Source: Branchiostoma floridae (lineage: Eukaryota > Chordata > Leptocardii > Amphioxiformes > Branchiostomatidae). From it: a stretch of 64,000 bases of DNA. Of the stretch, positions 2,510 through 24,049 are shown piece by piece. Both the position numbers and the translations under genes were made by a program. The notes beneath the pieces were generated by a model. It was not told the origin of the DNA, did no database searches, and worked only from the letters and a program-made list of their open reading frames with translations. The stretch is taken from contig NC_049982.1 in assembly GCF_000003815.2 (NCBI RefSeq), forward strand, positions 19,534,953 to 19,598,952, in the 5' to 3' direction. How positions within the stretch are numbered: the first letter of the stretch is position 1; the number at the start of each line of letters is the position of its first letter.

Positions 2510-3854
2510 TTACTTGTTATCTTTATCTTCAGCACCAAGGTCAGGCCTAATTTCTAGAATTTTTTCTCGGACGATCTGGACTCGTTTCTGCCTGTCGAGG
2601 TCCCGGATGTGTGTGAAGGGGATGTCGTTCTCGTGCAGGATGGTTGTCATGGCGACGGTGTAACACTGTAGGTCCTCCAGAGTTCCCATCATCCGGAAGC
2701 CGTCATCCTGGATGCACTCCTGGTGCGGTGTAAGGACGAACACAAGCGACTTCCTGTACCTGGGACGATGGTACATAAACGGGTACGGTAAAAAGCAACG
2801 AAAGAGATATATGTTTGTTGGACACATTATTATCTGTACGGATCCAGATATCATCAACTGTGTAATTGCCGTACATCTGCTGCTCTTGAATCTATATGGG
2901 CAGGGCAGTTATATCATATTGATATTGCCTTGTTGAAATAGTTGGATTACTATATACATATATTGATTTGTACTTGAAGTTAACTTTAATCTCATGTCGT
3001 GTTTTCCTGGTTGGTTATAAAGGACAAGCATAGCCATTAAGTACCAAAACATGGTATATTGTCGTGAACGTGCAGGAAATAAGACCAAAAAATAAATAAG
3101 AAAAAATATCATTGCAACAACCCTGCAGCTGTTCAGGAGCATTGACTTTCAATTTTATAACCAACGTTAACGTAGTGCTAAAACACAGATTCCCCATGTT
3201 CAACATGTTGATTGTACATACATGTATTTGCACTGTGTACCCACCTTTCGATGCACTCCTTAGCCTGATTCGTTCCCATCAGACGTTGTTTGGCGTCGTT
3301 CCCCAGGCAGACGGCAGCGTACACCACTGGGTCTATCCCCCGATCTGCGATGTAGTCTCTACCCGCCTCGGCATTTCTCCGCTCCGTCGCGCACTGGGCG
3401 TCTAGAATCTTCAGCTATGGGGACGGTAGAAATCATAATCCTTGACGTGTAAATTAGATAAATAATCAATGAAGCCTACACGGTACTTCAGGTAAGCAAA
3501 AACAAGGTAGATTGAAAAAAATTCTGTTACTGACAGCCTTGAAGCCAAAATGGGTGTCGCGTTCTAAATCATAAATGTAACTACTTCATATCACTTTTGG
3601 CTGGAGCAGACATAACGTCAGCACACATGAATCCCACTATAACCTTCACATACCTGGAGATCTTCGAATGCCCTTGGGTTCTTCCTATAGTCGAGGTCCT
3701 CCCGTGTGAGCCCCATGTCTTGTATAACCTTCCTGGCCACCTCGGGTTCACCATGTATCCTCACCGCCTGACTCAGGTCGTTCAGAAGGGTGGTCTTACC
3801 CGTGCTGTGGGCGCCGCACAAGAACACTCTCAGAATATCGCGAGAAGTCTCCAT
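2510..3854 (-). CDS. AAA_28-domain P-loop NTPase, TTD14-like
   Basis: Three exons on the minus strand: 3654-3854, 3245-3414 and 2510-2759 (phases 0 and 2, GT-AG throughout), giving 206 residues from an ATG at 3854. Residues 14-22 (GAHSTGKTT) are a Walker A P-loop near the N-terminus. DRGIDPVVYA at 91-100 matches the family's DRS-x-DP motif, and a conserved QDDGFR lies at 141-146. This layout is that of the AAA_28 family, which includes NadR-like kinases and the fly protein TTD14 (needed for TRPL channel trafficking, and GTP-binding). The protein has about the length of a bare NTPase domain, so it lacks TTD14's C-terminal extension. The true substrate (GTP, or a nucleotide/NMN-like ligand) cannot be told from sequence. 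It lies head-to-head with the RdRP-helicase gene, 1.5 kb away. Family call firm; cellular role unknown. Confidence 0.85.
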
Positions 3855-5366
3855 TTTTGGTGTGTGTGGGAGGGGGTCAACAAAGATTTGAAATATCTCT
3901 GGAAAGTAGAATCAAAACATGCAGTCTGTAGCCTGAGAATTGAACGTTGAACGACTTCAACTTTAACCCCGACGACCGGTAGAGCGAGAAATGGGGCTGT
4001 AGCTGTGCTTATAAAGGGTACGCGGTCGCTTTCTAGCTGCTTCCAATGCGTGTACAGGCTTTATAGCTATAGTATGTGCGGTACGATGACCAGTGCTAGT
4101 ACTACTGTAACAGCTTCCCTGTGTTTTGTAAGAGCTTTAAACAGGAAATTTATTCGAAACCTATGGGGCCTTACGTTTTGGGGATGTTGTTCATATTATC
4201 AAGCGGATTGCGTCGGCCAAATGGCGATGTTTTTTGTTTTTTGTTTCTTGAAGTCAGGCAACGAGAAGCTAAATATTGAGACGTGGGACATCACACCAAC
4301 CCGTGTCCCATGTAAGCAATGTGTGTAATATAATTAGTTTCAGCAGGAATACACCACGGTTGCAAGTGTCGTCTTGACATAGCTAATATGGGCGGGGAAG
4401 GATTACCTTACTCCAGTCACGTACACACCGAAACTGTGATGTTTTGAAGACACCGAAACCAAGCTCTGCTGAGTCACACCGAAACTTGGCCCCATTCCAT
4501 GCTGACAGGGGTGTGAAACGTTAGCTTCGGGATGAGTCATAAGCTTTGTGTGCACTGAACAAAGTAGTCTATTTGTGTGACTCCACCAGATATTTCATAT
4601 TCAACTTCAAGGCCAGGCGTCAGAATTGCGGTGGGAGATTGAAATGTGAGTAAGTAACTCAAGCGGGGTCGTAACGTTGAGTGTATGGCGCAGACATACC
4701 TAACGTTAACATGTTACCTTTAAACCCTTACTAACATGTAGTGACATGCCATTTTTATCAATGCACTTCATACGAGCCACAAGTCTGAAGGACAGATCTG
4801 ATTGCTGTTTAGGACAAAAATATGTTTATACTTCACTTCATACCAAGGGGAGAGGTAGGGTAGTGCCGTTGCTCTTGTATGCTGTAGTGGCATTCAATGA
4901 TTGGGTTCTTAATCAGCATAGTGTCTAGGTCCCGATATTGGAATAACCACTGGGGTCATTTTGGAACACTCCATTTTTGCATGGCTAATTTCGTCATACA
5001 CACCCTGCCAAACCAGGAAATAATGTGCAAATGTACTAGCAAACGGGATTGACATTAGGTATCAAGTCCCAGTGCTAGTGACAAGTCACTTCCGCGTACC
5101 CTTTCACCTGTATCTCCCAGCGACCTTTGCGCGCTGACTCACTTGCATGACGCTCTCAAGGATCCTTCTTGTCGGCTTCGTCGGACGGCAGAAACTACAA
5201 ACCACAGACTGACTGTACTAGCGCATGGGCAATGAGGCGTATATAGTTTTTTCGATTCAACTTACTTTCTGTTTATGTACATACAGATGCATTCCCATAG
5301 TTCTTATGTGTATTTGTGTATCTCTCACAACAGTAATCTGATGATAAGTCAACAGCCGCTGTAATA
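3855..5366. promoter_or_regulatory. Divergent intergenic region between the AAA_28 NTPase and RdRP-helicase genes
   Basis: This 1.5 kb must contain both 5' untranslated regions and promoters. ACACCGAAAC occurs three times at a 25-26 bp period (4425, 4450, 4476). A TATATAG lies at 5240-5246, 120 bp before the RdRP start codon. An in-frame TAA at 5334-5336 precedes that start. No coding exon is convincing here. Confidence 0.5.
4425..4485 (+). repeat. Three phased ACACCGAAAC decamers
   Basis: Exact ACACCGAAAC copies start at 4425, 4450 and 4476, so they are spaced by 25 and 26 bp, while the DNA between them differs. Similar words separated by a near-constant distance suggest a cluster of binding sites rather than a decayed tandem repeat. 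No known factor is assigned. Confidence 0.5.
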
Positions 5367-7798
5367 ATGGCGTCAACAGATTCGCGTACTCTAACGGGCT
5401 TCCTGGAGAATCCTGACACGGAGGAGGGTGTACGTGTTGAGCAGAAAGAACTGGTATATAAGCAGAAACGGTCAGGGCCACAAGAAAGACACCAGAAAGT
5501 TCCCATCAAAGTTGTCTACATACGCCGTAAGAAGGACCGTGAAGATGTCAGAGGCAAGAAGTTAACAACAGACGATTTTTTCGTCGAGACGGACTACACT
5601 GATGCTAAAATGTGCTCACTGTTCCGAGAACACGACGTCGGCCATTTTGTCGTCCTCCATTTTGATCTGAGTACACCGCCTCATGTCGTGTCGGCAGTGT
5701 TGAGGTCAGGCTTCAAAGTAACGGTTGGGAAAGGGCAGAGGCGTCATTATGTGTTCTTCGGTCACAGCGCGAGTCAGCTCCGAGAGAGAACGTGCATTCT
5801 GTACGATCAAGGGGTCTTGGGTCCTTGGGAACGGTTGGTCAACGGGTTTGGCGAGTTTGAAGCTATCAAAAACCCTTCCAAGCGAGCAGCACGAATTGGT
5901 CTTTTGCTCTCGACGGCGACAAAGTGCCTCGAGCTTGACGAGAAGGAAATAGATCACACCAGTGACATCGAGCGCGACGGGTTCACGTTCACCGACGGGT
6001 GCGGGTTCATATCTGTAGCCTGCGCCAGAAAAATCATGCAGGACAAAGACATTTCTGAGCGTTACCGACACCAGGATCCACCGGTCCCGTCTGTTATCCA
6101 GTTCCGCATGAAGGGATGTAAGGGTGTCGTCATGACCGATCCGTCTCTCCCCAACGGCGTGTGCATTCGCCCCTCACAAGAGAAGTTCAAGTGGAAGTTA
6201 CCGCCGCCCCATGTCTTCGGCGTGTGTGACGACGGCATCTCGCAGCCTTACACGTTTGGTCAGCTCAACAAACAGTACATCATGATGCTCTCCGCGCTCG
6301 GCATCAAAGACGAGGTGTTCCTGTCAAAACAAGAGACGTATTTCAAGGAACTCGATCGCTTAGAGACTGACAAAGAAGTAGCATTTCGCCACCTCTGTGC
6401 CCGGGGATACATAGGTCTCGCCGAACGCCTGTTCTCGCGAGAAGGCGGGCCAGACAACGAGACACTGGAGATACTTCGGGGATTCCGGAGTAGGGTACGA
6501 CGTCCCCCGAAAGCCAACAAACTCCACAAACTCCTCAACACAAAACCTGAGCCAGCAAGAGCCTTGAAAATACCCATAGAAAAGTCCAGGAACGTGTTCG
6601 GCGTCTGTGATCCTTCAGGCACGCTTGAGCCCGGACAGTGCTTCTTCCAAGCCACAGTCAGAGGGAAAATGCAGGTAGGAAAAATAATTATATACATACA
6701 ATAGCTATTTCTTCTTAAAACCAATAAAAGTCTTCAATTATTTTCCTTATTTCACATGCATGGTACCTTAAGCATTAGCTTTGATCCAAACACCTAACGT
6801 TTTACCTTCTGGCTTGCACGTTTTAGAAACACCGTTCAAAAAGTGCTTTCTCTCCTGTATGTGTGATAGGTCTTTGCGGACACGAAGGTGGCCGTGGTGA
6901 AGTGTCCGTGCTACCATCCCGGGGACTTCCGCGTCTTGCAGTGTGTCAATGTGGAGGAGTGCCGACATCTTGTGGACTGCGTAGTGTTTCCTGTGCAAGG
7001 TAACATATAGAACATACACAAGTTAAAACTATATCAAACTTGTTTGCAAAGATAGTTTTTCATCTACAGGAAGTAGACTATGAAGTGGTTACCAGTTGAG
7101 ACCTGATAGTGGGTACGACAATTTGAATTTGATATTACTTGTCATAACGTTAACGATCTATATTGGCGGCCATTGCTATTTGCCTGTTGGTTCTGGCAGG
7201 TGAGCGGCCACATGCTGATGAGATAGCCGGAAGCGACCTTGACGGAGATAAGTTCTTTGTGTGCTGGGATCCTGATCTGGTTCCGGAGTGTGAGGAAGCA
7301 CCGCTTTCCTATCCAGGTATCATTGATACTATTTCAAATAAGTTATTTTGATACAATGTTTTTGAAAGTATCGCAAACAGCCACCCACATTTGTTGCTAT
7401 GCGTTCTATCTTATAACAATGGTTCTAATGACAATATGCATCTTGCTGTCTCTTCACGATTACGTATGGTCACTAAATCATACAAGTAGTACTCTATCAG
7501 TACGCATCACTGGGGACGTTTTTTTTTTTGAGGACGTCGCCAAATTAGACATTGAACATTTTGTTTTTCAGGCGGAGAGGCTGCCAAGAAAGAACGTGTT
7601 TCCATTGGAGACCTGATTTCCGTGTTTGCTAACTACAACAGCCGCACGGTCAGCCGACTCAACGAGCTCTTCAACAGATGGGCTGACGTCAAAGGCGTGA
7701 CGTCATCCGAGTGTCGCAAAATCGCGAAGCTGTTCTCTACAGCGGTCGATACCGCAAAGACGGGGAAAGGCGTTGATATTCCACCTCGCTTGCTCAAG
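5367..7798 (+). other. RdRP catalytic module (exons 1-4)
   Basis: Exons 1-4 encode residues 1-594 and carry all recognisable RdRP blocks in canonical order. The metal-binding DLDGD (492-496) is preceded by RPHADEIAGS and followed by KFFVCWDPDL. Because the three catalytic aspartates and the neighbouring HPGD motif are intact, the polymerase is predicted to be active. Confidence 0.85.
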
Positions 7799-10700
7799 GT
7801 ATTCACTGTGAGATTCTTTTCTATTGTGTACACATTTTGTACACGTCCAATGCACTGGTATCTAGTTTTACTTCATCTATCCATTTATCTTCATCAATAA
7901 CGGACTGTGCTTATTTTTTCTCCAGCCACCAGACGCACAGGAGAAAAGATACGTGTGGCAGAAGATGTTGGAACGCGCCAATCTCTACCTCGCCGACAGT
8001 GTGGCTGCAGACAGCGACCTGACGGTTAGAGTCTTTGAAGAGGCCGACATCACAGACCTACTGAACAACAAGGACATCAACGTCAGCGAGTATCAGCTCT
8101 TCCGCTTCCTGTACAAATGGTGTGAGAGTAACGGCCGACTGCAGGACCTTCAGAGATATGTGGGCCAAATTGATTTCACACGCTTCACGCCTAGTCAGAA
8201 AGTCAGAGTGGCAGTCGATTGCCCTGAACTGCCCATGGAGTACGTCAGCAATGCCTTCTACAGATCAAAAATCCTGACGGAGAACGACATAGAGCGGATG
8301 GACATTATGTCGCCAAATCAGTGGTCACTATTCTACCGGGAGTCCGATGAAGACATATCTTGGCCGACCGTCCGAAGCGTCTTGACGTCGGAAACCCCGA
8401 AACTGCTTATCTTCGAGTTCTGCTTGGCGGGAACAGTCCTGGTGATGGGGCTGTGTCTTCCCGGGCCGCTCGTGATGGAGGACGTCATCACTACAGACCA
8501 GAGCTCGGGACGTCCCACGGTGGTCTTCTTCTCGGACCACTCTGGCGGAGGGATGGAAATGGTGGACCTTCAGGATGGCCATAGGAACGACGACTACCTG
8601 TTGGAGCTGGACTCGGAACACCTACAGATCTACAACGTCAGACGTCCGAGGACATTCGTTTGGTTACGGTGGAGCGATGAAGCCGTCAGGATGAGCGTCG
8701 CGCTGGACAGGTTTCCGGGAGAACGCAGAGACCGCTCCGTCAAGCTGCAGAAGGAAGAAGTCCAGTCAGTTGAAGTGTTTTATCAAGTTACACGTATGCA
8801 GTGTGGCCCGAGCATCTACACCGAGCGGCGGCAGCGGGAAGGCCTCTCAGAAGAACCACCACAAGCCGCACCAGAAGGGACGGACGTGGCAGGCACGGCG
8901 TTCAATCTCAATATAGGGAGTCCTCGAGAATTTCCTGAGCTGGGGGTTGAACTAGACGAGGATATTTCAGAGGAGGCTGAACGACTGCGCAAGTTTGAGT
9001 CCATGTGTGAAGCCATCTGTGAAGACGGAGAAGCCGGGACGCTGTCAAGTGACTCCCTAAACCAGATCATTCATCGCTTTGGACAACTACCTGAGGTACG
9101 TCTCACTCACAATACTACCATTGTCCTAGTGTTAATGTGAGAAAAAACAATTCCGACAAGCGTAAATATTTGGTCCTGTCACTTTTATTACCGCCTTTTC
9201 CAAACTTACAACATCTAGACACATACGTTACTCCTCTTCACATTGTAGGCAGCCTTGAGGCTGGAATCTCTGATGTGGAAGTATCGTGACCAAGTCAACC
9301 ACCGACCTGAAGCTGAGGAGAGATACTTCCACCTGCTCATCAACATAGTGTTCATGACGTCATACATGTGTGTGCAGCCGGCAGCCAGCACAGACACGGA
9401 GTCAACACTCATGAGAATTCGCAGGTGAATTGGCGTATCTTTTCAATACCTGACAAACCTTATGTTTTGATTGTCATATTGAATGGTTATTGCCGAAAAT
9501 AGCACTACTGCAATATTTTTCATTTTTTTAAGACCAGACGTTTTCTTCTTCAGATTTTGCAAGACTCTCCAGAGAGACGGTGTCGTCTTTGGACTTGACA
9601 GGTTACGGCAACTGTTCATTCATCTTCAGTACGCAGGCGTCCACTGCGCCAACAGTCTACTGGACATGATCAGAGATGGTAGGTAAAACATAGGTTTATA
9701 GCACCAAACGATGACAAGGTCCTGCTGAATATCACTCTCTAGTTTTTTAGTCAATCAGTACTTGTGAAGCGTTATTATCGGCCATAGTGACATGACCGTT
9801 GAAACAGAGATATTTTCTGTGTAATGTTCGGACCGAATGTTACATACTCCTAAGTTCTCACGTATTCGTGCTTCAGGTGTACTCCCCATCAACCCTGCTG
9901 ACTTCGTCCCCGGGCACGTGGATTACTACTTACACTGGAGCGCGCTCTGCACCATGGAAGTCCGGGAGGAAGTCTGTAGCTCCCGGAGCAGGGCTCTTCG
10001 CGCGAGGGAAGACGAGATCTCGGTCATACGCGTGGAAGAGGATGATGGTCGCTACTTCATTGCTGACTGGGAGAAGAACGAGCTACCGCTGTCCGTCGGC
10101 GACCAGCTGCAGATAACGGCGCTCCCGATGTCTCAGGCTTCACCCGAAGTTATAGTGACTGAAGTTAAAATCGACAGGACAGGTACGTACACAGACAGTC
10201 AATGCCTAACAATTGAATGATAATTGAATGATTAGATAAGGTATCAAAAGTCTTTTTTATTGCGTTTGGTTACCTTAAATGTCTGTTACCTTTAGTTTTA
10301 ATGTTAAACTTCTGTTATTTTTGTACTTGTAGAAGTAGAGCTGAAAGTCCTGTGGAACAACGGTGAGGCACAGCATCAGTGCATCACTCCCGGTCAGTTC
10401 GCCGCCGTCCACATCGGGAATTGTATTTCCCACAGGAGGGTGATGGCGGCACTCGACTGCCTCTGCGTGAAAGCCGACTCGGACACCCCCAGTAACCTGA
10501 TGTGTGAACGCGTCATCTCGTCTTTCGGAGGTAACGTTGATGGGCTGGCTGCTACCTTTGAGCAGGGCGGCGACGAAGACCGAATGAGAGACGACGGCAT
10601 CCAAAGTGACGCAGAAGCACCACCCAAGGCGCCTGGAACAACAGATGCGACCTCTACCGGTCCTACAAATGATGAAGATCTCCATACTGATGCTCCGTTG

Positions 10701-13700
10701 GAACATCAACGGACAGAAGCAGCATTTGGAGGTTCGGACTTTGATGCAGCTACAGGCATGCGACCGAAGAAGCGATGGTTCACGAAGAGTATGATGAACA
10801 GCAGCCAGGAAAAAGCCGTCCAAGCGGCCTCCTCGTCTGAGATCACGCTGATCCAGGGACCCCCGGGAACAGGGAAGACGAAGGCCGCCGCAGAGGTCAT
10901 CATCCGATGGCAGGGGCAAAGTGACAACAAGATCCTGGCTGTGGCAGAGACAAACGAAGGAGTTGACAACATCATACAGAAACTTCTCGACAGGTAGGGT
11001 ACTCTTAAACAGAGTAATGTTCTGGGATAACGTTTTGTTAAGTCACCCTCTATCATTTACCATGCCAAGCGAGAGACCATAAAAAAAACCTCCTATTCTA
11101 ACTAAAATCATTTGCCACAGAAATGTTCCACAAGAACAGATACTGCGCGTAGGTCAGCCAGAGAAGGTGAGGTACGGCCTCAGGCACCTGACGCTCGACA
11201 AACGGTACGACGACAAGTACGGCTCGGGTGAGTCCAGGGGAGGAAGGAAGAAACCTCAGGGCATAAAAGCGATCCTGTCAAAAGCAAATGTAAGTGATAA
11301 GACGTCTATGTTATCTCCACACAGAACTCTCAAGCCAACGAAGCTGTAGATAACACATCTTTAGGATTACGAGCAAATGGAAAGTTGCATGGACACCGTA
11401 TTACATACGAATGTAATCATCTTCCAAATCAAAGATAACAAATGTACATGATATCTATTAATGGAGTTGGCGTTTCCTGCACTTTGCTCGGCCAAAGTTT
11501 TCAGTGACTCTACTTCTATCCTCATTGTACACAGATCATCTGCACCACGTGTATCGGCGCGGGAAGCCAGGTTCTGCAGCAGATGACGTTCCGCCGTGTG
11601 CTCGTAGACGAGGCGGCCCAGGCCACGGAGCCGGCGGTGCTGTGTGCCCTGTCTCACGGCTGTCAGCAGGTCTGTCTCATCGGAGACGACCAGCAACTCC
11701 CGCCACTCGTACAGAGCGAGGATGCACAGGAGCTGAAAATATCTCTGTTCGAAAGGTTCGGTATTGTGTGTTTTCCTATAAGACAACAACATTTATCTGT
11801 GGTATAAGGTTAACACTATACAAAAATCATAATTGCCGTTTATCATATTGAGTTTCACACTCATGTGACCATGTTCTTGTTTATCAATGAGGTGAGTTTT
11901 TTGTTGTTAAGATCCTGTAATCTTTGCTATGGGAGGGTAGCCTGGGTACATGGTAGGATTGCTAATAGAGCAATCGTAGGGAATTTAAAGCCAGGCGCCG
12001 CGGACCAATCAGAAGACCACGTTCCACGTTGGTTATGACGCAGTAACATATAGATTCCGGCCAGGCCACCCTTGCTGCCTTGAATTTATCCTTTCAAAGA
12101 ATGTTACCGTAGCACTATATGTACATGTACGCTCACTGTATTGCTCATTGTTATAGCCAAGATCCTGGTCTTAGACCCTACATTGTTGTAATCGGCAAGA
12201 CCTTGGTCTTAGGCCGTTGATGTCTTTGCACAACCTGTAAGCCTCTCATCGAGCAGAATAAAGACATCATTTGACCCCGAACCGCGTAGCTTTCTCCTTG
12301 TGTCATCTCGGAGTACGTAAGAGTAATTCATCCGGAAAGTAGTACGCTCCGGTGTTTATTATACATTATCATAAAGCCAGGCGCCGCGGACCAATCAGAA
12401 GACCACGTTCCACGTTGGTTATGACGCAGTAACATATAGATTCCGGCCAGGCAGGTGTGTATCCTCCTTCTGGTTGGTCAGAATGAATCGACACCGGCAC
12501 CGTTGTCGATTTGCATCGACACCGGCACCAGTGTTGATGCAAATCGACACCGATGCCGGTGTCGATTCATTCTGACCAAGCAAAATGAGCAATACACACA
12601 GGAAAGTAAGGGATATGCAGGCATTGGCCAATCAAAAGGAGCGAAACATATGCAAGAGCAGAGGGAATAAGTACAGACTGCAAGAGGGGGATGGCTCCTT
12701 CTGTTAACATTGGTGATGAGTTTTGTTGTTCAAAAATGCCAAAGACTGCAGTGTTTCGAATATTTTCTGGGGAAATTTTGGTTTCAAAATGCAATCTATA
12801 ATCTCCTTACAAATGTATGTACCAAAGAACAAATGTGAATTTTCAGAAATTCGACAATGGAATTCACACTGTTTAGTACCAAGGGATCTAAGCGTCACAC
12901 AGGAGTGTGCAAGTTTAGGTAGGCTATATGATAATAACGTTAATGACCCGCCTGTTCCTCGGTGTACATGGTGTCATAACGCCTGGTCCTTTGCTATAAC
13001 CACCTCATAAAACCACCTCGTTCGCTTTGCTCACTCGGTGGTTTCATTCGGTGGTTATAGCAAAGGACCAGCCGTTATGACACCATATACACCTCGAGGC
13101 GGGTCATTAACCCTTAATTATATACGGTCGCTTCTTGCTCTGGGGTTTATTATACACTGTATACGTCGCTTCTCTGCTGTTCTGTCCACCTTGACCACGT
13201 TAACGTCTGGAATCGTCCACATTTTGTACGAGGGCACTGATTGCTCCTTACCGGGAGGGTGGACGAAGGGAAAATTCTCTTCTCTTTTGATTTCAGATGG
13301 AGAGGACAGAGGTTACAGGTTCACCTTCTGGACACGCAGTACAGAATGCATCCGGCCATGTCAGCTTTCCCATCACAACATTTCTATAATGGTCAGATTA
13401 AAGATGGTGTGGAGGCATCTGCCAGAAGGCCGCCCTCTGGATTCGATTGGCCTAACCAAAATATGCCAGTCTCGTTTGTCAACGTTTCTTCTCGCGAGAC
13501 ATCCCGTGGAACATCCAAGTTTAATGATGAAGAGGTCAAGATCGTCATCGCCATGACTGAACAGTTGCTTGAGGGGGGTGACATACGGGAGGATGACATC
13601 GGTATCGTGTCGCCCTACAAGGCACAGGTAAGTTCCACGATATCAAAATCAGTGGTACAGAGTGTGCGCATGGTCTTACAAACTATTATCAACTTTTGTA

Positions 13701-14703
13701 TTGTTCCCAGGAAAACCTCTACTTTGTTTTCAGCTAAGATATTGGTTAGTGTCAGAATGGCAAAGGGTGTATTATTCAATCCCTTATAAATGTTATATAC
13801 CTTAATGCATTGTTAAACCTAATGCAATGATGTAAAACGTGTTTTTTTACGAGACTGCTAATTTTTTGTCAAATTGTTTGGTTTCCTTGCGCGAGTAGAT
13901 AAAAAAGGTCACAGAGGGCTTGGACCAAAACATCGCCGTCCGGTCTGTAGATGGCTTCCAGGGACAAGAACGTGATGTCATCATTTTCTCTGCTGTCCGG
14001 GCCAATGAGGGAGGATACGTTGGTAAGTGTATAACTACGTAACGCATTGTTCTGGACACCAAAAGAGAGCCAAACAAAAACAATTTCCACACAGTGAAAC
14101 ATAGCTTGCTTCATCTTTAACTCAATGACTTTGCTGATGTTTTTTCAGGGTTCCTAAACGATCCCCGTCGAATGAACGTGTTACTGACGAGAGCCAAGCG
14201 GGGGCTGATTGTGGTGGGTGATGGAAAGACCCTGGAGAAGGGAAGTGATGACTGGAACAAGTGGATTCAGTGGATTCGGGAGAATAAGCTGGAGCAGTTA
14301 AGTAAGCTGCACTAGTGTTGTTTCTTTAAAATTATATGAATGAATTCATTCTTAACATTTGTGGATTTGCGTCTTAACCAGCACATGTACAAAACACAAT
14401 ACTGTAGTAGATGCCTCTAAATGATGAAACTATAGCTGTGTGGGAACAGTGTGCGTATATTGATTTACCATTGCTGAGTATCTAATATGGTCTCATCAAT
14501 GCACAACATCACAGTTAATAAGAGGTTCCATGTTTGCACCATGTCCATGTACAGGGGCCGAAGGGACTGGGACTGGGCGTGGCAGGCAATCTGGCACCAA
14601 CCGCACACGAGGCCGTGGACAGAGGGGGAGAGGGTACAGGGGACGGGGTGCAGGCAGGGCCAGGCGTGGCAGGGGGAATGGCTGGCATCAGTCACAAAGC
14701 TAG
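5367..14703 (+). CDS. RNA-dependent RNA polymerase fused to a UPF1-like SF1 helicase with an RG-rich tail
   Basis: Fifteen exons: 5367-6674, 6870-6999, 7200-7316, 7572-7798, 7926-9095, 9249-9424, 9554-9678, 9877-10182, 10333-10993, 11121-11289, 11535-11755, 13297-13627, 13899-14022, 14149-14301, 14555-14703. All junctions are GT-AG with matching phase; product 1788 residues. The N-terminal ~600 residues are a QDE-1/EGO-1-type RdRP: FTDGCGF, the GVCDPSGTLEPGQ block, CPCYHPGDFRVL, and catalytic DLDGD at 492-496 with all three Asp, then the VDTAKTG segment. Residues ~600-1340 are unassigned. The C-terminus is an SF1B helicase: Walker A GPPGTGKT 1362-1369, DEAAQ 1488-1492, GDDQQLPP 1513-1520, QYRMHP 1551-1556, VDGFQGQERD 1664-1673, NVLLTRAKRG 1698-1707. 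Residues 1741-1788 are an RG-rich tail. Family knowledge suggests dsRNA synthesis in small-RNA pathways; coupled unwinding is inference. The start has an in-frame upstream stop, but an extra 5' exon is possible. Confidence 0.88.
11987..12066. repeat. 80 bp exact direct repeat, copy 1
   Basis: This 80 bp block, beginning AAAGCCAGGCGCCGCGG and ending TTCCGGCCAGGC, recurs without a mismatch at 12373-12452. Both copies are in the intron between RdRP-helicase exons 11 and 12. Confidence 0.95.
12373..12452. repeat. 80 bp exact direct repeat, copy 2
   Basis: Identical to 11987-12066; the copies are 386 bp apart start to start. The second copy directly abuts a fold-back palindrome (12474-12579). Perfect identity implies a recent duplication or gene conversion. 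Confidence 0.95.
12474..12579. repeat. 106 bp near-perfect palindrome
   Basis: TTGGTCAGAATGAATCGACA at the left is matched by its inverse at the right, and an inner pair (GTCGATTTGCATC / GATGCAAATCGAC) nests inside. The word GACACCGGCACC recurs. The short open frames on either strand here mirror one another because of the palindrome and are not genes. Confidence 0.9.
12940..13110. mobile_element. Fold-back MITE flanked by TTAA
   Basis: TTAA precedes TGACCCGCC at the left, and GGCGGGTCA is followed by TTAA at the right. Long inverted arms continue inwards (TGGTCCTTTGCTATAACCACC and its inverse around a short loop), so most of the 171 bp can form one hairpin. TTAA target duplications are typical of the piggyBac and Kolobok superfamilies; no transposase is present. 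Confidence 0.75.
14555..14703 (+). other. Terminal exon of the RdRP-helicase: RG-rich tail
   Basis: Exon 14 has an internal donor (CAGTTAA|GTAAGC, GT at 14302) that joins in phase 1 to an acceptor at 14553-14554. The joined frame runs 48 further codons, almost half Gly and Arg (GRG, RGRG, RGRGY, RGRG repeats), to TAG at 14701-14703. If that intron is retained, translation instead stops at 14313-14315 after LSKLH. RG/RGG tails commonly bind RNA and are targets of arginine methylation. Confidence 0.7.
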
Positions 14704-15841: not shown

Positions 15842-18800
15842 TTAATTATGGAAGTTTCCGATGGTGAGAGCGTCCTTCAGCATGAGGTCCCGCAGCGCCC
15901 ACAGGGCAGACTCCATGTTCTTGTGCGGACCTTTCCCGTTCTTCAGGATGTGTCCGGGGAGCCGCGCCCGCTGCTGTTCCGTGAGCTGTACATCCTCCTG
16001 TCGCACAGTCAGGGTCTCTTCCCAGTTACTCACTGACCTGTTCTCAACCTGTGTGTGAGGAACAGACAATAGCAACATTTAGCATTTCACTTCTCAGTGT
16101 GCCTTTATAGCAACAGTGAGTGATTAAGATGGATGAGTTTATTGCATTTGATTATAAAAAGGATCAATGGTACTTGAAGGCTTACCTTTAGGCCTTCTAT
16201 GTAGCGGATGTAAGCCTCGGAGTGCAGCAGTCTCTGTGCCTTTGGTGGGGGAGGCACAAACATCGGCGGGGGTGGGGGCTGCGGTGGGGGCGCTGGGGAC
16301 TGTGTCTGTGGATGAACACCGTACTGAGTACCACCCTGTCCATAAAAATACTTTGGCACAATTTGTAAAGAGGGGAAAATGGGAGTTAATATCAGTTTTA
16401 CAATGGCTCAAGGAACCCATTCACCAGAACAAACACCCAAACAAGGAAAACACTCTTTACAGTAAAATCCACACAAGCAGACTGAGCATCTTACTATAAA
16501 AATCCACAACAGGACTGTCATACAAGGGTGAGACAAGACAAGAACATGAGGTGTGGGAGATGAGATGCAGAGAAATGAGAGACAATGCAGGTGACAAGCT
16601 GTGAACAGAATCTAAACTACAACGTGCTGATCAGGAATATAAAACTGAGTGCATCTTGTGCAGTGCCATCCTAACCTTTTCCTCTATAGTGACTATGAGC
16701 ATTCTATAATAAATAGGCCTCTTCACATATCAAAACAATAGCATCTCTACTACATTGACTTGTCTCTTAAAAACATTACAAGGGAGAAATTTCAGCTTTC
16801 TTTGTCATAGGTCATAACCAGGCAGAAGCAAAGGCTGCATTCAGATCAAATCACTCTACTCATTGTTGTATCCAGATAACTAAACTTAACTGTCCATTAG
16901 AACCCTGTAAGAACCCTGCTGCAGTATAGAAATACCCACAGAGAAAGTATGTTCATTATCCTTATAGAACTCCTCCCACAAGAGTAGATAGGACAGCCAG
17001 CAGTGTGAAGAGAACCAAATCAAACTGTCACCCCTATTGTCTACCAAACCAGAGAAAGATCTTGAGAGGGAAAAGTCACCAGAGCAAACCCATGCACAGT
17101 GGGAGCAACCATCTCACCTGCGGTGCAGGGGGGGTAGTACCCACAGGAGGGGGGCCCATCTGAGGGGGGTACATCTGCGGAGGTATTGGTCCACCTTGTG
17201 ACAGGGGGGGTTGTTGGGAGTATCCCCCCTGCTGGGGGAATGGGCTCTGAGGGGGGAAGGCACCGGGTATCTGCGAGAAGGAGGCATACTGGAAAGAAAG
17301 ATGTCGTTATTCTGCTAGTTCTCTCCAAGACTATACTTTCCTATTCATTCTGTACATTCTTTCATTAAGTTGCTGTATTCAGTGAGTGAAAATCGTAAGT
17401 GAAGTCGTAAGCGCATCTAACCCTGTCTACATAACTAAGAAACGAGAAGAAGCCGAACAAATGTATTAGAATAGTTTTAGAATTTATGTTTTAGATTAGT
17501 CTTAGAAACCATGTTTACTGCATTACTACCCTTTGTATCTATATGCCTGTACTTAGCCCGATAGGGCATGAATGTGCAATAAAGGCTATTATTATTATTA
17601 TTATTATATTGAGTCTTAAGTACCAGTCTTCACAGCCTGACTAGTAGTGCTGCAGTAAGTTTGCAAATATTTACTAAAATGCACATGACAGATGTGTCCA
17701 CAATATGAAACATGGTTGATATGTAAGTGTTACGTACCCCACATGTGAACGAACACGGCACGAGCAAACAATGATAAAATGAAAGGGATAAGTTTGCATG
17801 GAGTCTGACATAAACGCTGGTGGGGACTTTGACGACGCGAAGAGCAATACAACGTGACCTTTCAGTAAAATGGGGCAGAGGGATTGTGAACACCATACAA
17901 ACTTTACCTGTAGACTGTTGGCAGGCATGTTCATGGACTGTCCAGGGGTCAGGGGCTGGTTGGTACCTGGGGTCATTCTCTGGCCAGGTGTTCCTGTAGG
18001 ACAATATTAGTCATTAAGGAACAACATTCAATACTAAAATCCAGGAAACATATCTAAATATAACTCATGTCTATTTCAAGATTCCTGTAACTAAAAAACA
18101 GGGTCATGCATGTATAAAGTTTATCTTCATAATCCTAGTGAAACTAAAGTTGTCCATTTAATACATTAAATTTTGCTGCTTGGCCTAGCCCATAGGACCC
18201 ACACTGCATGAGGACATACCGTTTGCTGCCATCTGTGTCTGTGATAACATTCCTGCTGGCATGGGGGGAGGAACCACACCCAGCACAGCTCCAGAACCCT
18301 GCAAAGAACATGTTAATATAATACATGAGTATTACTGTGACAGTCATATTTAAATGACATACAAGTGAGAAATGTATTAGCACTATTTTGCTATCATTTC
18401 TAAAACACAATTGTAATATGTGCAACTTAACAAAAATATTCAAGTTGGACAGGAACATGCAAGTTACTCCAAAGAAAATAATATTTTTTTTGCAATTACA
18501 AGACATGATAAACAAAGAAGCTGACAGAAGTGCCATATATTTAGAATGGGTCAGACTACATTAAGATAAGGTTGATCTGAAGTTTGCATACAATAAACTA
18601 CAATAAGTTGGGTGCATCACCTAATAACAGCCTTCATGAATACAATACTAGAACATCCATACCTGCGGAGTGAATGGGCGCGGTGACTGACTCGGCGATG
18701 CCTGGTACCCAGGCTGGTAGGGTATGTAGTTGCGACTTCTCTGGCTGAGCGGGATCTGACGGGACGACGTCTTCACGTGGACCTCCCGGACGTGGCGCTT

Positions 18801-21800
18801 CATCCCCGAGATGTTGGGGAAGGGGAGGCTCTTCTTGACCCTAGACCTGGGGCAGCCTGCCCAGTAGCAGAAGTACTCCTGCTGCTCCCCCTCAGGTTTC
18901 AGGTGCCCCGAGGTCTCCAGCAGGTGAGCCACCAGGTCCTTCTCGCTCTCGTACTGGTAGTCGCACCCCTCCCACAGGCACTCCCACACCAGGATCAGCG
19001 GGTCCGAGCGGCTGCTGCTGTGACCCGACGCGGGGGATGCTGGGTAGGGCGACTCGTCGTCGTTCTGGCTGGAGCTCTGCTGCTGCGCCCTCTCCTCGTA
19101 CACGGCTTTCTGCGCCGCGCTCAGGTTCTTCCACTCCATCCCCACGATTCGGCTGATCTCCCCGAACGCATAGTTGGGGTTCTGCTTCTTGAGAGTTGCT
19201 CGCATCTCGCTGGAGAACAGAATGTATCCGCTCGGTGGCCGTTTGGCCTTTGGCGCCTTTATGGGAGTTGACGGTTGCTGCAGTTCTTCATCTGCATCAG
19301 GAGGCACGGCAAACGCAACAGGCTCCTCCGAAATCTCTGCCAACTTTGGTGACGGGACCTTTCCTGGGACGATGGGCTTACGGAAGAAGAAGATCTCATC
19401 ATCCGTCACTTTAGGGGAGAGGCTGTACTTCTTCAAGGCCTTGATCTTGCGGATCTGCTTGTCAGCTTCGTAGTAGCGAGCCTCGCACACCCAGATGTCA
19501 TCCTCCATGAACTCAGTGGGCCGGCAGATGAGGTAGTCCTTGTAGGCCAGGATGCAACACTTCCCCAGGATGGTTCTCATGGACTTGGACTCCTCCATGG
19601 ATGTGAGGAAGATCTCGTTCTTGTAGAACAGCCTGGTGGGGTTGTGATCCGTCTCTGAGGGGTAGATAAACCACTGGCCGTGGAACCATGGCTCACTGTT
19701 GGCATCCACCCACATCTTGTCTATACGAGCCATGAGAGGTTGCTCCCTGCTGGACTTCACATAGACAGAGTCACCCAGCTTAAAGCAGGTTCCACCATAG
19801 ATGAACTGCTCATAATGAGAAATACCGGGCTCAGTAGTGTTTGATGCCTCCACTGCAATGTTCTCCCTGACTTTGTCAATGACATCTTCCTCCTCCTCTT
19901 CTTGATCCTCAGTTTCTGCCTCCTGCTCCTCTAGTTTGGCTTCTTCTGCAAAAACTGATGCCACTCGAACCTTAGACAGTGGTTCCTCCCGCGGGATTAT
20001 CTTTACATTACTAGGGGGTGTGGGCCAGATTTTGATCTTCTTGAAGGCCTTAGCTCTTGCACTGTACCGAGACTCGCATACAAAGATGTCATCATCACTG
20101 ACACCCTGGGGCTTACTCTTGAAGTATTCCTTCACTGACATCACAAAACATCTTCCTCTAATGCTGGCAATCCGAGCGATGTTGTAGTAGTCACTCTTAA
20201 ACACCTCCTTCTCTAGAAACTTCCTTGTGGCCAAATGGAAGGTTTCCTTTGGACGATAGAACCAACAGCCATGCAGCCACTGGTCCCCTTGGTCGTCCTG
20301 GAAGAGTTTCTCAATACAGACAATATGAGGTGGCAAACTCTTGTCCTGATTCTCTATGTACACAAAGTCTCCCACACGGAATGACTGGTCCTCCCAGCTG
20401 ACATCCTCGCTGTATTTCCGCTGCATTGCAGTTTCACTAGACTCTTCTTCAAGCTCATCTTCCTCCTTTCCATCATCATCCTTCTTCTCCTTGTCTTCCT
20501 CTAATTCTTTAGGAATCTTCTCCTTTTTCTCAGCATCCAGCTCCACCTGGAGATGCTTGTGAGTGTAGCTGAGAGCTGGAGACAGCATCAGCTCCCCATT
20601 CTTACAGATCTCATCCCTGATGGTGATAAAGAACTGCTGCAGCTCCACTGCATCTTCATACATCTCTGAGTCGGTACGACTGACTCGTCTGGCTCTCTCA
20701 AACACTCGAAACACATCTTCCTGAAACACATCGAGCCTCCTGTACCTCCCCTTGTCGAGGTTTCTGCGAATGGCTTTGAAGCTTGCTGGACCTCTCTTGT
20801 GTGGTTCCTGCTGCTGCTCCCTCTCCTTCTTGTCTTCTTTCTCAGGTAACTCTGAGAGGGAGTCGCTGTAGCAACGCCCCTCCTCGTCCTGGTGGTTGAG
20901 AACGGACACAAAGAGGCTGTTCAGAAGGTCCTGCACACATCCGCGGATGTCTGGCACCTCGGAGCTGCCATCTCCGTGGACTTCATCCCTCTTCTCCAGA
21001 AGGGCCCGCTGCAGGATCAGGGCATCTTTGTATATCTGTGAGTCGGGCTCATTGTATCGGCAAGCATTATCAAACAGCTGGAGGAAGTCCTCCAAATAAT
21101 CCTCCACAGTGTTGTACTTGTTGGACCTCATGTTAGCTTCAATTTTCTGCATGTCGATGGGTTTCTTAATGACTTGGTAGTAGTCGGGATAGTCTATCTT
21201 CGAGGGAAGCTGCAGGAACATGAAGCAAAGCTTGCGGCCTGTGGAGTCTTTATAGTCCTTCACTGAATCGTACATGTCCCGCAACTTCTGTTGCAGGGGT
21301 GTCAAAAACTTGGACTTCTTCGGCGAGCTCTTTCTTGGCCCCTTCAGTCCTGCTTTAGGAGAGAAGAGGCCGCCTTCTGAAGTAAGAGGTCCCAGCTGTT
21401 TTACTTTGTCTTTTAAAACCTTCTCCAGCGTGCAGGCATCTATATACACCTGTGAACCTTCCTCATTGAAGTGGCGTGCATTGTTGAACATGAGATCAAA
21501 GTCTTCCAACATGGCCTCCACACTGGAGTACTTGTCGGTTCGGATGTTGTAATCGATTGTCTTCATGTCGATCGGCTCGAGGATGATCTTGTAGTACTCG
21601 GGGTAGTCTTTCCGGGAAGGCTTTTCCATGAACAGCTCAATGAGAAACCGACCAAACGCATCACAATAGCCTATCATGGCATCATACAGGAACCGCAGTC
21701 GGCCCTTCAGGGTGTTCTCTCCTTCATCTTTCTTCTTCTTCTTCCGCTTTTCCTCCAGATCTTCCATGATCTGCGGACGTTTGACTTTCCTGCTGACACC

Positions 21801-24049
21801 AGAAGCACTGCTCAGCACGCTTTCTGTGTCTCCGTAGTTGCTGTCCGACTTGGTCAGCTCTCTCTTCTTGACCTGCATGACCTGCTGTAGCTTAACTGCG
21901 TCCTTGTAGATGCGAGACCCTGTCATGTTGTACTGTTTGGCATTCTCAAACATCAGGGTAAAGTCAGCTTCCAGGTGGTCGAGGGTCTCGTACAGCCCCT
22001 GCTTAATGTTGCTTCTGATTTTCAACATGGACATAGGATGTTTGATCTCCTGGTAGTAGTCAGGGTACGCCTTCTTGGATGGGAGCTTGAGAAATGGCTC
22101 GGACAGACACATCCCTTGCCCAGTGGAGTACCCTCTGACGTGGTCGTACAGTGCCAGGAATGTGTTTCCCTCCTCGTACATGGAGCTGTCTGCTTCCGAC
22201 TCTTCCTCGTACTCCGTGATTGACACGCGCTCGCTAGCTTCACTCTGATCCTCCTCCTCTGATGAGTACTGCAGGGCTGCAGTGATCGCCGACAGCCGGC
22301 TGCTCAGTCCTGACCTACCACTCCTCCGACTAGATCTGTCCGAACTCCTGACTCCTACAGGCTCTCCCTCAAGCTCTGCCTTCTTCAGTGAGAAAATCTT
22401 CTTCAGTGCCACAGCATCTTTGTAGACAAGTGATCCTGGCTCATTGAAGGTTTTGGCATTCCTTACCATTAGGCTAATGTCCCTCTCCATGTCTGCGAGT
22501 GTGTTGTACACATTTCTCTTGATCTTACGAGCAACCATCGTCAGATCCATGGGATCCTTGATGATCTTGTAATACTCTGGAAATTCTGAGCGCACTGGCA
22601 GCTTCTGGAATAGGAATGACATAGCTCTGCCTGTTGGGTCAGTGGCATCAGCCATGGCTACGAAGAGCTGTTCGTATGGATTCTCGGTATCTGCTGCAAA
22701 GGGAGGGAAGTCGATCTCTTCCTGATCCTCCCCTTCAATATCCTCCTCTTCCTCCTCCTCCTCTGTTGTTTCATCCATCTCCTCCCTTCTCCTCTTTGCC
22801 TTTCCCTCCAGTGTGTCCCCGCTGATGCCCCCATGGACCTCGTGCAGAATTTCATCTCGGGCCTCCACGTAGATTTCCCACAGGGCGCTGGCATCGTTGT
22901 ACTGCTGGCTACCCTGTGGGTAGTACCTCTTTGCGTTGTTCACGAGAAGATCCACGTCAGCAGTGAAGTCCTGCAGGGTGCGGTACTCGTCCGTTCTGAT
23001 TCGCTGCTGAATCCTGAGCATGTCGATGGGGGTGTCCACAGCTTCGTAGAAGTCAGGAGCATTGCGACGGTTTGGAGCACGGATGAATGGATCACACAGC
23101 AGGCGGCCATTTTCATCCCTATGGTTGCGTATGATGTCATACAGGTCTTGGATGACCTCACCTGTGGAAGGGAGAGAGAATATAAAACGAGATTAGGAAT
23201 GATTACCAAGATTTTAGCACTATAGCAGTCAGTACAGTTTATAGCTATACTGTAGCAAATTACATAGAATAAGTCCCTGGCCTAGGCACTTAGGCTGGCA
23301 GGCAGGCAGAAAATGACATGTATTTAGATTACATTTTGTCAACTAACTCCAGGGAGACAATCAGTTAGTTTTTGGAGATTTTCATAGATACAATGGTTAT
23401 TTTTAGAAGACATGCAAGACCAGTAGATACAAGTAGAATGCACACTACACACCACAGGAAAGCTACAAAAGTGACCTACCAATCCTAGGATAGGCTAGCA
23501 GAGAGAAGATAGAAGGCATTGTTTAGGGCAAACAGATTATGGACAATAATATCAATGTCAACAGACAAACAAACATTGCCACCAGATTCTGCACATAACA
23601 TACATGTCTTCATTGCATAATGACACAACAAGCCAGTCAGTGCCATAGAGAAATGAACATTACACCAATGAGGTCTTTTCAACATGTTACATTAGGTTCT
23701 AGATGCCCACACCCTCAATTCTTTGCTCCATCTACAAGCAATAGCACAGCTTCATATGACCTACGGTTACATTTAGTAGTAGTTTACTGTAGCAGGTACA
23801 CTGTAATATATACACAGCACCGTGCACTGCGTGCAGAGAACCTTGACTCAAGCCTACGTCTTGCGGATAAAATCAAGAAATAGACATAAAAAACAAGAAC
23901 AACAGCAATAGTCCAGTGATCTGCACAAACTTACAGGTACCTGTATCAATAGATGGAGCAGATTTCCTGCGAGTCTTCATGGAAGGACCCATATCCTCCT
24001 CCAGCCGTACATCCATCCCCACAGAGCTAGACCTCCTTCTCTTAGCCAT
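15842..24049 (-). CDS. PBRM1: Polybromo-1 (BAF180), PBAF chromatin-remodelling subunit
   Basis: Seven exons on the minus strand: 23935-24049, 18663-23161, 18220-18298, 17908-17993, 17118-17288, 16186-16335 and 15842-16048, all phase-consistent; 1768 residues, slightly longer than the human protein. It has six bromodomains (roughly 42-150, 195-305, 375-480, 530-635, 670-775, 785-900), two BAH domains (~955-1084, ~1155-1282), an HMG box (~1342-1398) and two C2H2-type fingers (1433-1458, 1470-1500), then a Pro/Gln-rich tail and a conserved C-terminal helical segment. Bromodomains 2-5 keep the acetyl-lysine-binding Asn (FN/YN), whereas 1 and 6 do not. In the PBAF SWI/SNF complex it reads acetylated histones. 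Nearly all domains come from one 4.5 kb exon. The first exon donor has two in-phase choices (GGT or GTAAGT), differing by two residues. Confidence 0.96.
17530..17610 (+). mobile_element. Non-LTR retroelement 3' tail with TTA microsatellite
   Basis: A short segment ending in GTGCAATAAAGGCTATTATT and continuing as TTA triplets looks like the 3' end of a LINE or LINE-mobilised SINE. Only the tail is recognisable. It lies in a PBRM1 intron, antisense to that gene. Confidence 0.5.

Follow-up and report, generated by a model that had tools for sequence, protein, structure and literature searches.

A lancelet gene predicted to carry a cellular RNA-dependent RNA polymerase and an SF1 helicase in one protein

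Does a single gene of the lancelet Branchiostoma floridae encode a cellular RNA-dependent RNA polymerase (RdRP) and a superfamily 1 (SF1) helicase as one protein, or have two neighbouring genes been run together by a gene model? The question arises at positions 5367-14703 (+) of a 64,000-nucleotide stretch of contig NC_049982.1 (forward-strand positions 19,534,953 to 19,598,952), called the window here. A first-pass annotation had drawn one 15-exon gene there, with an intact RdRP, a complete UPF1-like helicase and an arginine-glycine (RG) tail, and had proposed a novel one-protein unit that could unwind a template and copy it into double-stranded RNA. Its structural claims agree with what we find, and on the sequence the answer is that both enzymes are encoded as one protein by one host gene. 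The claims of novelty and of function need to be recast.

One gene or two

The gene was rebuilt as a phase-consistent path of 15 exons in which 14 of 14 introns are GT-AG and a single frame runs from ATG to TAG over 1788 amino acids, the same length as in the first-pass annotation. Exon borders were set by a GT-AG search within 6 nucleotides of positions chosen by eye, which yielded 360 combinations free of stops, of which 120 end in frame. Two borders have competitors: the best splice score for the exon 9 acceptor is tied with that of a version starting 6 nucleotides later (10339), and at intron 11, whose donor is weak (gttcgg), another pairing (11760/13305) also preserves the frame. The G+C fraction is 0.50-0.68 in the exons and 0.29-0.44 in the introns, a contrast that makes the former resemble real exons.

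What separates one gene from two is the stretch between the halves, a middle region some 740 residues long (595 to about 1340) that reads as coding sequence in phase with both. The introns that cross it (introns 4 to 8) are only 127, 153, 129, 198 and 150 bases long, and neither TATA(A/T)A nor A(A/T)TAAA occurs on the + strand from 7798 to 10333. Each exon was also shuffled 20,000 times by base, counting the frames that stay open. Exon 5, with its 390 open codons, never stayed open (0/20,000) and exon 9 did so twice (2/20,000), whereas exon 6 remained open in 1190 and exon 8 in 380 of 20,000 shuffles. Hence the short exons are weak proof, and the long exons bear the argument. Those rates for exons 6 and 8 (6% and 2%), together with a middle region that has no recognised domain tying it to either half, are the points in favour of an RdRP gene and a helicase gene merged wrongly by the model. 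Given the unbroken frame, the short introns, the lack of promoter-like or poly(A) motifs between the halves and the length of exon 5, such a false joining is very improbable; moreover, an RdRP paired with AAA_12 is also predicted in B. lanceolatum (BL02069, PMC6396948).

The two halves and what lies between them

The polymerase half is an intact cellular RdRP by the usual signatures: PF05183 matches residues 109-597 (E 2.1e-107; 360.6 bits against a cut-off of 23.8; profile positions 59-554 of 582), and the catalytic motif DLDGD at residue 492 fits the DbDGD pattern. In a search of PDB sequences, 7w84 ranked first (an RNA-dependent RNA polymerase, which we take to be maize RDR2), followed by 7eu0 (RDR2). 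The RdRP core and catalytic motif can be aligned with these plant chains over about 500 residues, with the surroundings of DLDGD kept, but about 450 residues precede the aligned part in the plant proteins and about 105 in the window protein. Kinship within the family is less clear. In a tree of 9 rows the window protein is unplaced, on a long branch of 4.83 changes per column, and its highest identity to another RdRP is 35%, to the C13b paralogue. No relative of the RdRP half was confirmed in IMG/VR (one pattern match, unconfirmed), where single-protein queries reach close relatives only. Pfam gave no match to the metazoan RdRP PH-like domain in the window protein; the paralogue on contig C1 has a match to it below cut-off (25.7 of 27 bits). 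The RdRP half thus appears to be fast-changing, and neither half seems to have a firm sister.

The helicase half is equally complete. AAA_11 (153.8 bits) and AAA_12 (196.5 bits) both exceed their cut-offs of 27, with matches extending to residue 1714, and the Pfam check proposed for the 1788-residue translation therefore returns all three families above cut-off. The SF1 motifs looked for are all present and in order: GPPGTGKT (1362), DEAAQA (1488), GDDQQL (1513), QYRMHP (1551), VDGFQGQE (1664) and VLLTRAK (1699). A DEAD profile over the SF1 Walker A region reaches 19.4 against a cut-off of 26, and helicase-C has no Pfam match up to E 0.1 in the window protein.

Whether the helicase deserves the name UPF1-like depends on what is meant. 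By similarity it does: the core is 38% identical to human UPF1 and 41% identical, over 381 columns, to the lancelet UPF1 row of our tree, and a PDB sequence search ranks UPF1 first at 241.5 bits, with SMUBP-2 at 152.5. By kinship the label goes too far. The best NCBIfam model is TIGR00376, of the IGHMBP2 family, and falls below cut-off (292.6 against 348.9 bits). UPF1 is defined by an N-terminal zinc-binding (CH) domain, for which the whole window protein has no Pfam match up to E 0.1. None of its five core introns falls where the lancelet UPF1 gene has one, the closest pair being about 3-4 codons apart; on this comparison (by eye, on approximate UPF1 borders), a recent duplicate of that gene was rejected as the source.

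The trees of both halves that had been called for place UPF1 nearest to the helicase and leave both halves without a position. The helicase tree has 15 rows: the window protein, human UPF1 and 13 of 14 helicase regions picked and fetched from the genome matches. The omitted region (L027) is IGHMBP2-like by eye and a single short piece; the tree covers neither IGHMBP2 nor the remaining AAA_12 places. Each row was assembled by joining tblastn pieces of unspliced DNA and removing the stops, and some rows therefore carry intron or frame noise (L016 has 602 residues). L016 has the UPF1 label because two of its pieces match human UPF1 at 88% and 92% identity (46-100% in the others). The ZNFX1 labels come from Pfam (L018, L019) or from the position of PF25396 matches (L023-L025), those of SETX and DNA2 from the best PDB match (SEN1 and DNA2), and those of MOV10 and HELZ2 from inspection by eye. 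In this tree the window helicase has no supported sister, and UPF1 is nearest by path and by identity. Approximately unbiased (AU) tests did not reject a joint clade with UPF1 (p 0.183), ZNFX1 (p 0.168) or SETX (p 0.237), and weakly rejected one with MOV10 (p 0.040), whose rows were labelled by eye. The helicase is predicted to be SF1B, with UPF1 nearest.

A ZNFX1-type helicase, which would make the protein a literal fusion of the fission yeast pair Rdp1 and Hrr1, was considered and set aside: Pfam finds no ZNFX1 domain (PF25396) in the window protein; the domain is found at five other loci of the genome. The window helicase lies outside the clade that unites the five ZNFX1 rows (100/100), but a joint clade was not rejected (p-AU 0.168).

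The middle region resembles nothing that was searched. No Pfam family exceeds its cut-off there (DUF2671 reaches 17.3 of 23.2 bits), no PDB sequence is significant (best E 7.6), residues 595-1110 match only themselves in the lancelet's own genome, none of 8 pattern matches in IMG/VR was confirmed, and hhalign found no homology to the C-termini of the C1 and C8 RdRPs or to the UPF1 core. Exon 8 presumably occupies the place of the 1B barrel of UPF1-type helicases, by position and eye only; neither Pfam nor PDB gave a match there. At the other end of the protein, the RG tail is as first described, with 9 RG and no RGG in the last 49 residues, and it hinges on one splice: if intron 14 were retained, the protein would stop at ...EQLSKLH. 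The C1 RdRP paralogue has an RG-rich stretch of its own, in a long open frame after the RdRP domain.

Table 1. Exons of the rebuilt gene, in window coordinates; residue numbers refer to the 1788-residue protein
Feature	Position	Strand	Content
Exon 1	5367..6674	+	residues 1-436; N-terminus of 108 residues before the RdRP match, then first part of RdRP
Exon 2	6870..6999	+	residues 437-479, RdRP
Exon 3	7200..7316	+	RdRP catalytic motif DLDGD (residues 492-496)
Exon 4	7572..7798	+	residues 519-594; near end of the Pfam RdRP match (to residue 597)
Exon 5	7926..9095	+	residues 595-984; start of middle region; 390 open codons
Exon 6	9249..9424	+	middle region
Exon 7	9554..9678	+	middle region
Exon 8	9877..10182	+	residues 1085-1186; middle region
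Exon 9	10333..10993	+	last part of middle region; first part of helicase, motif I (GPPGTGKT)
Exon 10	11121..11289	+	helicase
Exon 11	11535..11755	+	helicase motifs II (DEAAQA) and III (GDDQQL)
Exon 12	13297..13627	+	helicase motif QYRMHP; AAA_12
Exon 13	13899..14022	+	helicase motif V (VDGFQGQE)
Exon 14	14149..14301	+	helicase motif VI (VLLTRAK)
Exon 15	14555..14703	+	RG-rich tail, stop

The gene's one long intron, intron 11 (11756-13296), holds a perfect 81-nucleotide direct repeat (11986-12066 and 12372-12452) and two hairpins (12464-12589, 89% complementary; 12961-13093, 91%) that resemble small non-autonomous transposons. Elsewhere in the window, a P-loop kinase-like gene, identified by eye, lies upstream in the opposite orientation (about 2540-3870, -; CGAHSTGKTTLL). 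At 18648-23192 (-) a single open frame of 1514 residues in one uninterrupted exon looks, by eye, like a polybromo-like protein with bromodomains, a BAH domain and an HMG box.

RdRPs across lancelets

The B. floridae genome searched here (513.4 Mb in 431 contigs) gave 26 RdRP profile matches at six loci: one on C1, one on C8, three on C13 and the window gene on C4. DLDGD is kept at 6 of 6 (the window gene and L009/L010, L012, L013, L014 and L015). Among the AAA_12 matches listed, at least 42, only the two on C4 adjoin an RdRP, at the window locus, which makes the window gene, within those matches, the only RdRP-AAA_12 fusion of the six.

B. lanceolatum likewise has six RdRP candidates, and BL02069 alone is given an extra domain, AAA_12, in the Fig 1 legend of Pinzon et al. 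2019 (PMC6396948). Like the window protein, BL02069 combines AAA_12 with a full-length RdRP domain whose catalytic site is preserved; the difference is that AAA_12 alone is named, the word "helicase" being absent from the paper's main text. The same number of RdRPs and the same architecture make BL02069 a likely orthologue, and the fusion is probably conserved between the two species. Its existence was therefore already in print in that legend, and the first-pass annotation overstated the novelty; no discussion of the fusion was found in the parts of PMC6396948 consulted. No other paper on an RdRP-SF1 fusion turned up among the matches listed from the open-licence literature, which does not establish its absence from print. 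Transcripts of the B. lanceolatum RdRP genes are present and developmentally regulated, and the active site is reported intact in 3 of 6 (PMC6396948), as against the 6 of 6 B. floridae loci that keep DLDGD. B. belcheri also has six RdRPs, one of them dispensable: it is missing in 50% of individuals, and the authors link it to defence genes (PMC12373286).

Two further features of the B. floridae genome were noted. The ZNFX1 domain PF25396 occurs at five loci, four of them clustered on C6 at 2.03-2.09 Mb (L019, L023, L024, L025) and one on C11 (L018); the helicase family whose members work with RdRPs in worms and yeast is thus expanded here. A Piwi-domain exon piece (C149:81260-81826) matches profile positions 129-166 four times in 152-base steps, either as tandem exon copies or as an assembly artefact.

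What the fusion may do, and its known counterparts

The single frame, both sets of motifs and the lack of a second such fusion among the six RdRP loci come from the sequence; the activity, coupling, substrate and pathway of the protein are inferred. The best explanation, to which we give a probability of roughly 0.45, is that the helicase remodels RNA and the RdRP copies it as coupled activities, serving the surveillance of RNA or antiviral defence and acting outside small interfering RNA (siRNA) amplification. The RG tail and the helicase would load the enzyme onto RNA; the helicase would spend ATP to strip away proteins and structure while reeling the RNA in; and the tethered RdRP would copy the reeled RNA into complementary RNA. 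The fusion would then unite in one piece what in fission yeast, for example, is the RdRP-helicase complex Rdp1-Hrr1, but its work would lie outside the siRNA amplification known from worms and plants.

Several points weigh against this proposal. The gene model was built from genomic DNA alone. The helicase has no ZNFX1 domain and does not group within the clade of ZNFX1, to whose family the RdRP partner Hrr1 belongs, although a joint clade is not rejected (p 0.168). The long branch and very short N-terminus mean that the activity of the RdRP half may have changed. In B. lanceolatum no population of siRNA-like RNAs was found and antisense reads across exon junctions were almost absent; the authors raise the possibility that the RdRPs are inactive (PMC6396948). 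These small-RNA data argue against a role in amplifying RNA interference (RNAi), and they lend no support to the function that the first-pass annotation had proposed.

Polarity is a further difficulty, and one that the idea of unwinding a template and copying it overlooks. UPF1-type helicases move 5' to 3', whereas template reading by a polymerase runs 3' to 5', and on one strand the two polarities are opposite. Two distinguishable modes follow, in which the helicase either reels and clears the template or peels off the product. In the latter it would run 5' to 3' on the nascent strand and release single-stranded antisense RNA instead of double-stranded RNA, which suits a 5'-to-3' helicase tethered behind the RdRP and agrees with the failure to find siRNA-like RNAs. 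PMC6396948 itself considers that the products may be single-stranded, yet hardly any antisense junction reads were seen there, in a search that covered 18-30 nucleotide reads only, and we consider action on the product rather unlikely. A broader proposal, which we hold only tentatively, is that this one-piece chordate enzyme runs a non-RNAi copying pathway for defence or surveillance, with its activities coupled and single-stranded antisense copies possibly peeled off.

The same observations could mean that the RdRP half is silent or rarely used and that the protein, like UPF1, MOV10 or ZNFX1, serves RNA decay or defence mainly as an SF1 helicase that binds RNA. The long RdRP branch and the short N-terminus would fit, as would the lack of clearly detected RdRP activity in B. 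lanceolatum (PMC6396948). But the window protein keeps DLDGD and the residues around it, which can be aligned with plant RDR2; the catalytic site of BL02069 is preserved (PMC6396948), and a silent polymerase is judged unlikely. Conversely, the protein might be a conserved RNAi-amplifying RdRP with its own helicase, active only on infection or at unsampled stages: RdRP-helicase partnerships are known in RNAi (PMC9276528, PMC2965749), and Piwi-domain matches are present in the genome. With no candidate siRNA population reported from B. lanceolatum embryos, larvae or wild-caught adults (PMC6396948), this is quite improbable.

The fusion bears on a wider puzzle, since animal RdRPs outside nematodes are hard to account for: lancelets keep intact catalytic motifs, and siRNA products are undetected (PMC6396948). 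The fused helicase offers a concrete handle, because a single recombinant protein would hold two activities that can be separated, and would let partnerships that involve separate proteins in yeast and worms be tested as one machine. In fission yeast the RNA-directed RNA polymerase complex (RDRC) consists of Rdp1, the helicase Hrr1 and Cid12 (PMC2965749); the likeness is an RdRP working with an RNA helicase, and the differences are that RDRC is made of separate proteins, serves the siRNA pathway and includes a poly(A)-polymerase partner. In worms EGO-1 and the SF1 helicase ZNFX-1 come down together in immunoprecipitation, and Hrr1 is described as the orthologue of ZNFX-1 (PMC9276528), whereas the window protein has no ZNFX1 domain. 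Together the Rdp1-Hrr1 and ZNFX-1/EGO-1 pairings suggest that the fusion fits a recurring partnership of RdRP and helicase. Covalent linkage itself has precedents: the contrast first drawn with the superfamily 2 (SF2) helicase-RdRP of Dictyostelium stands, and PMC4791657 adds such fusions in oomycetes, Hydra and Nematostella. In those proteins too a cellular RdRP is joined to a helicase, but that helicase is a DEAD-box and helicase-C unit, amino-terminal in oomycetes, and the RdRPs are placed in the gamma subgroup (PMC4791657), whereas the window protein carries an SF1 helicase on its C-terminal side. The lancelet protein is thus of a known kind, a helicase-RdRP fusion, in which a C-terminal SF1 helicase represents a different arrangement.

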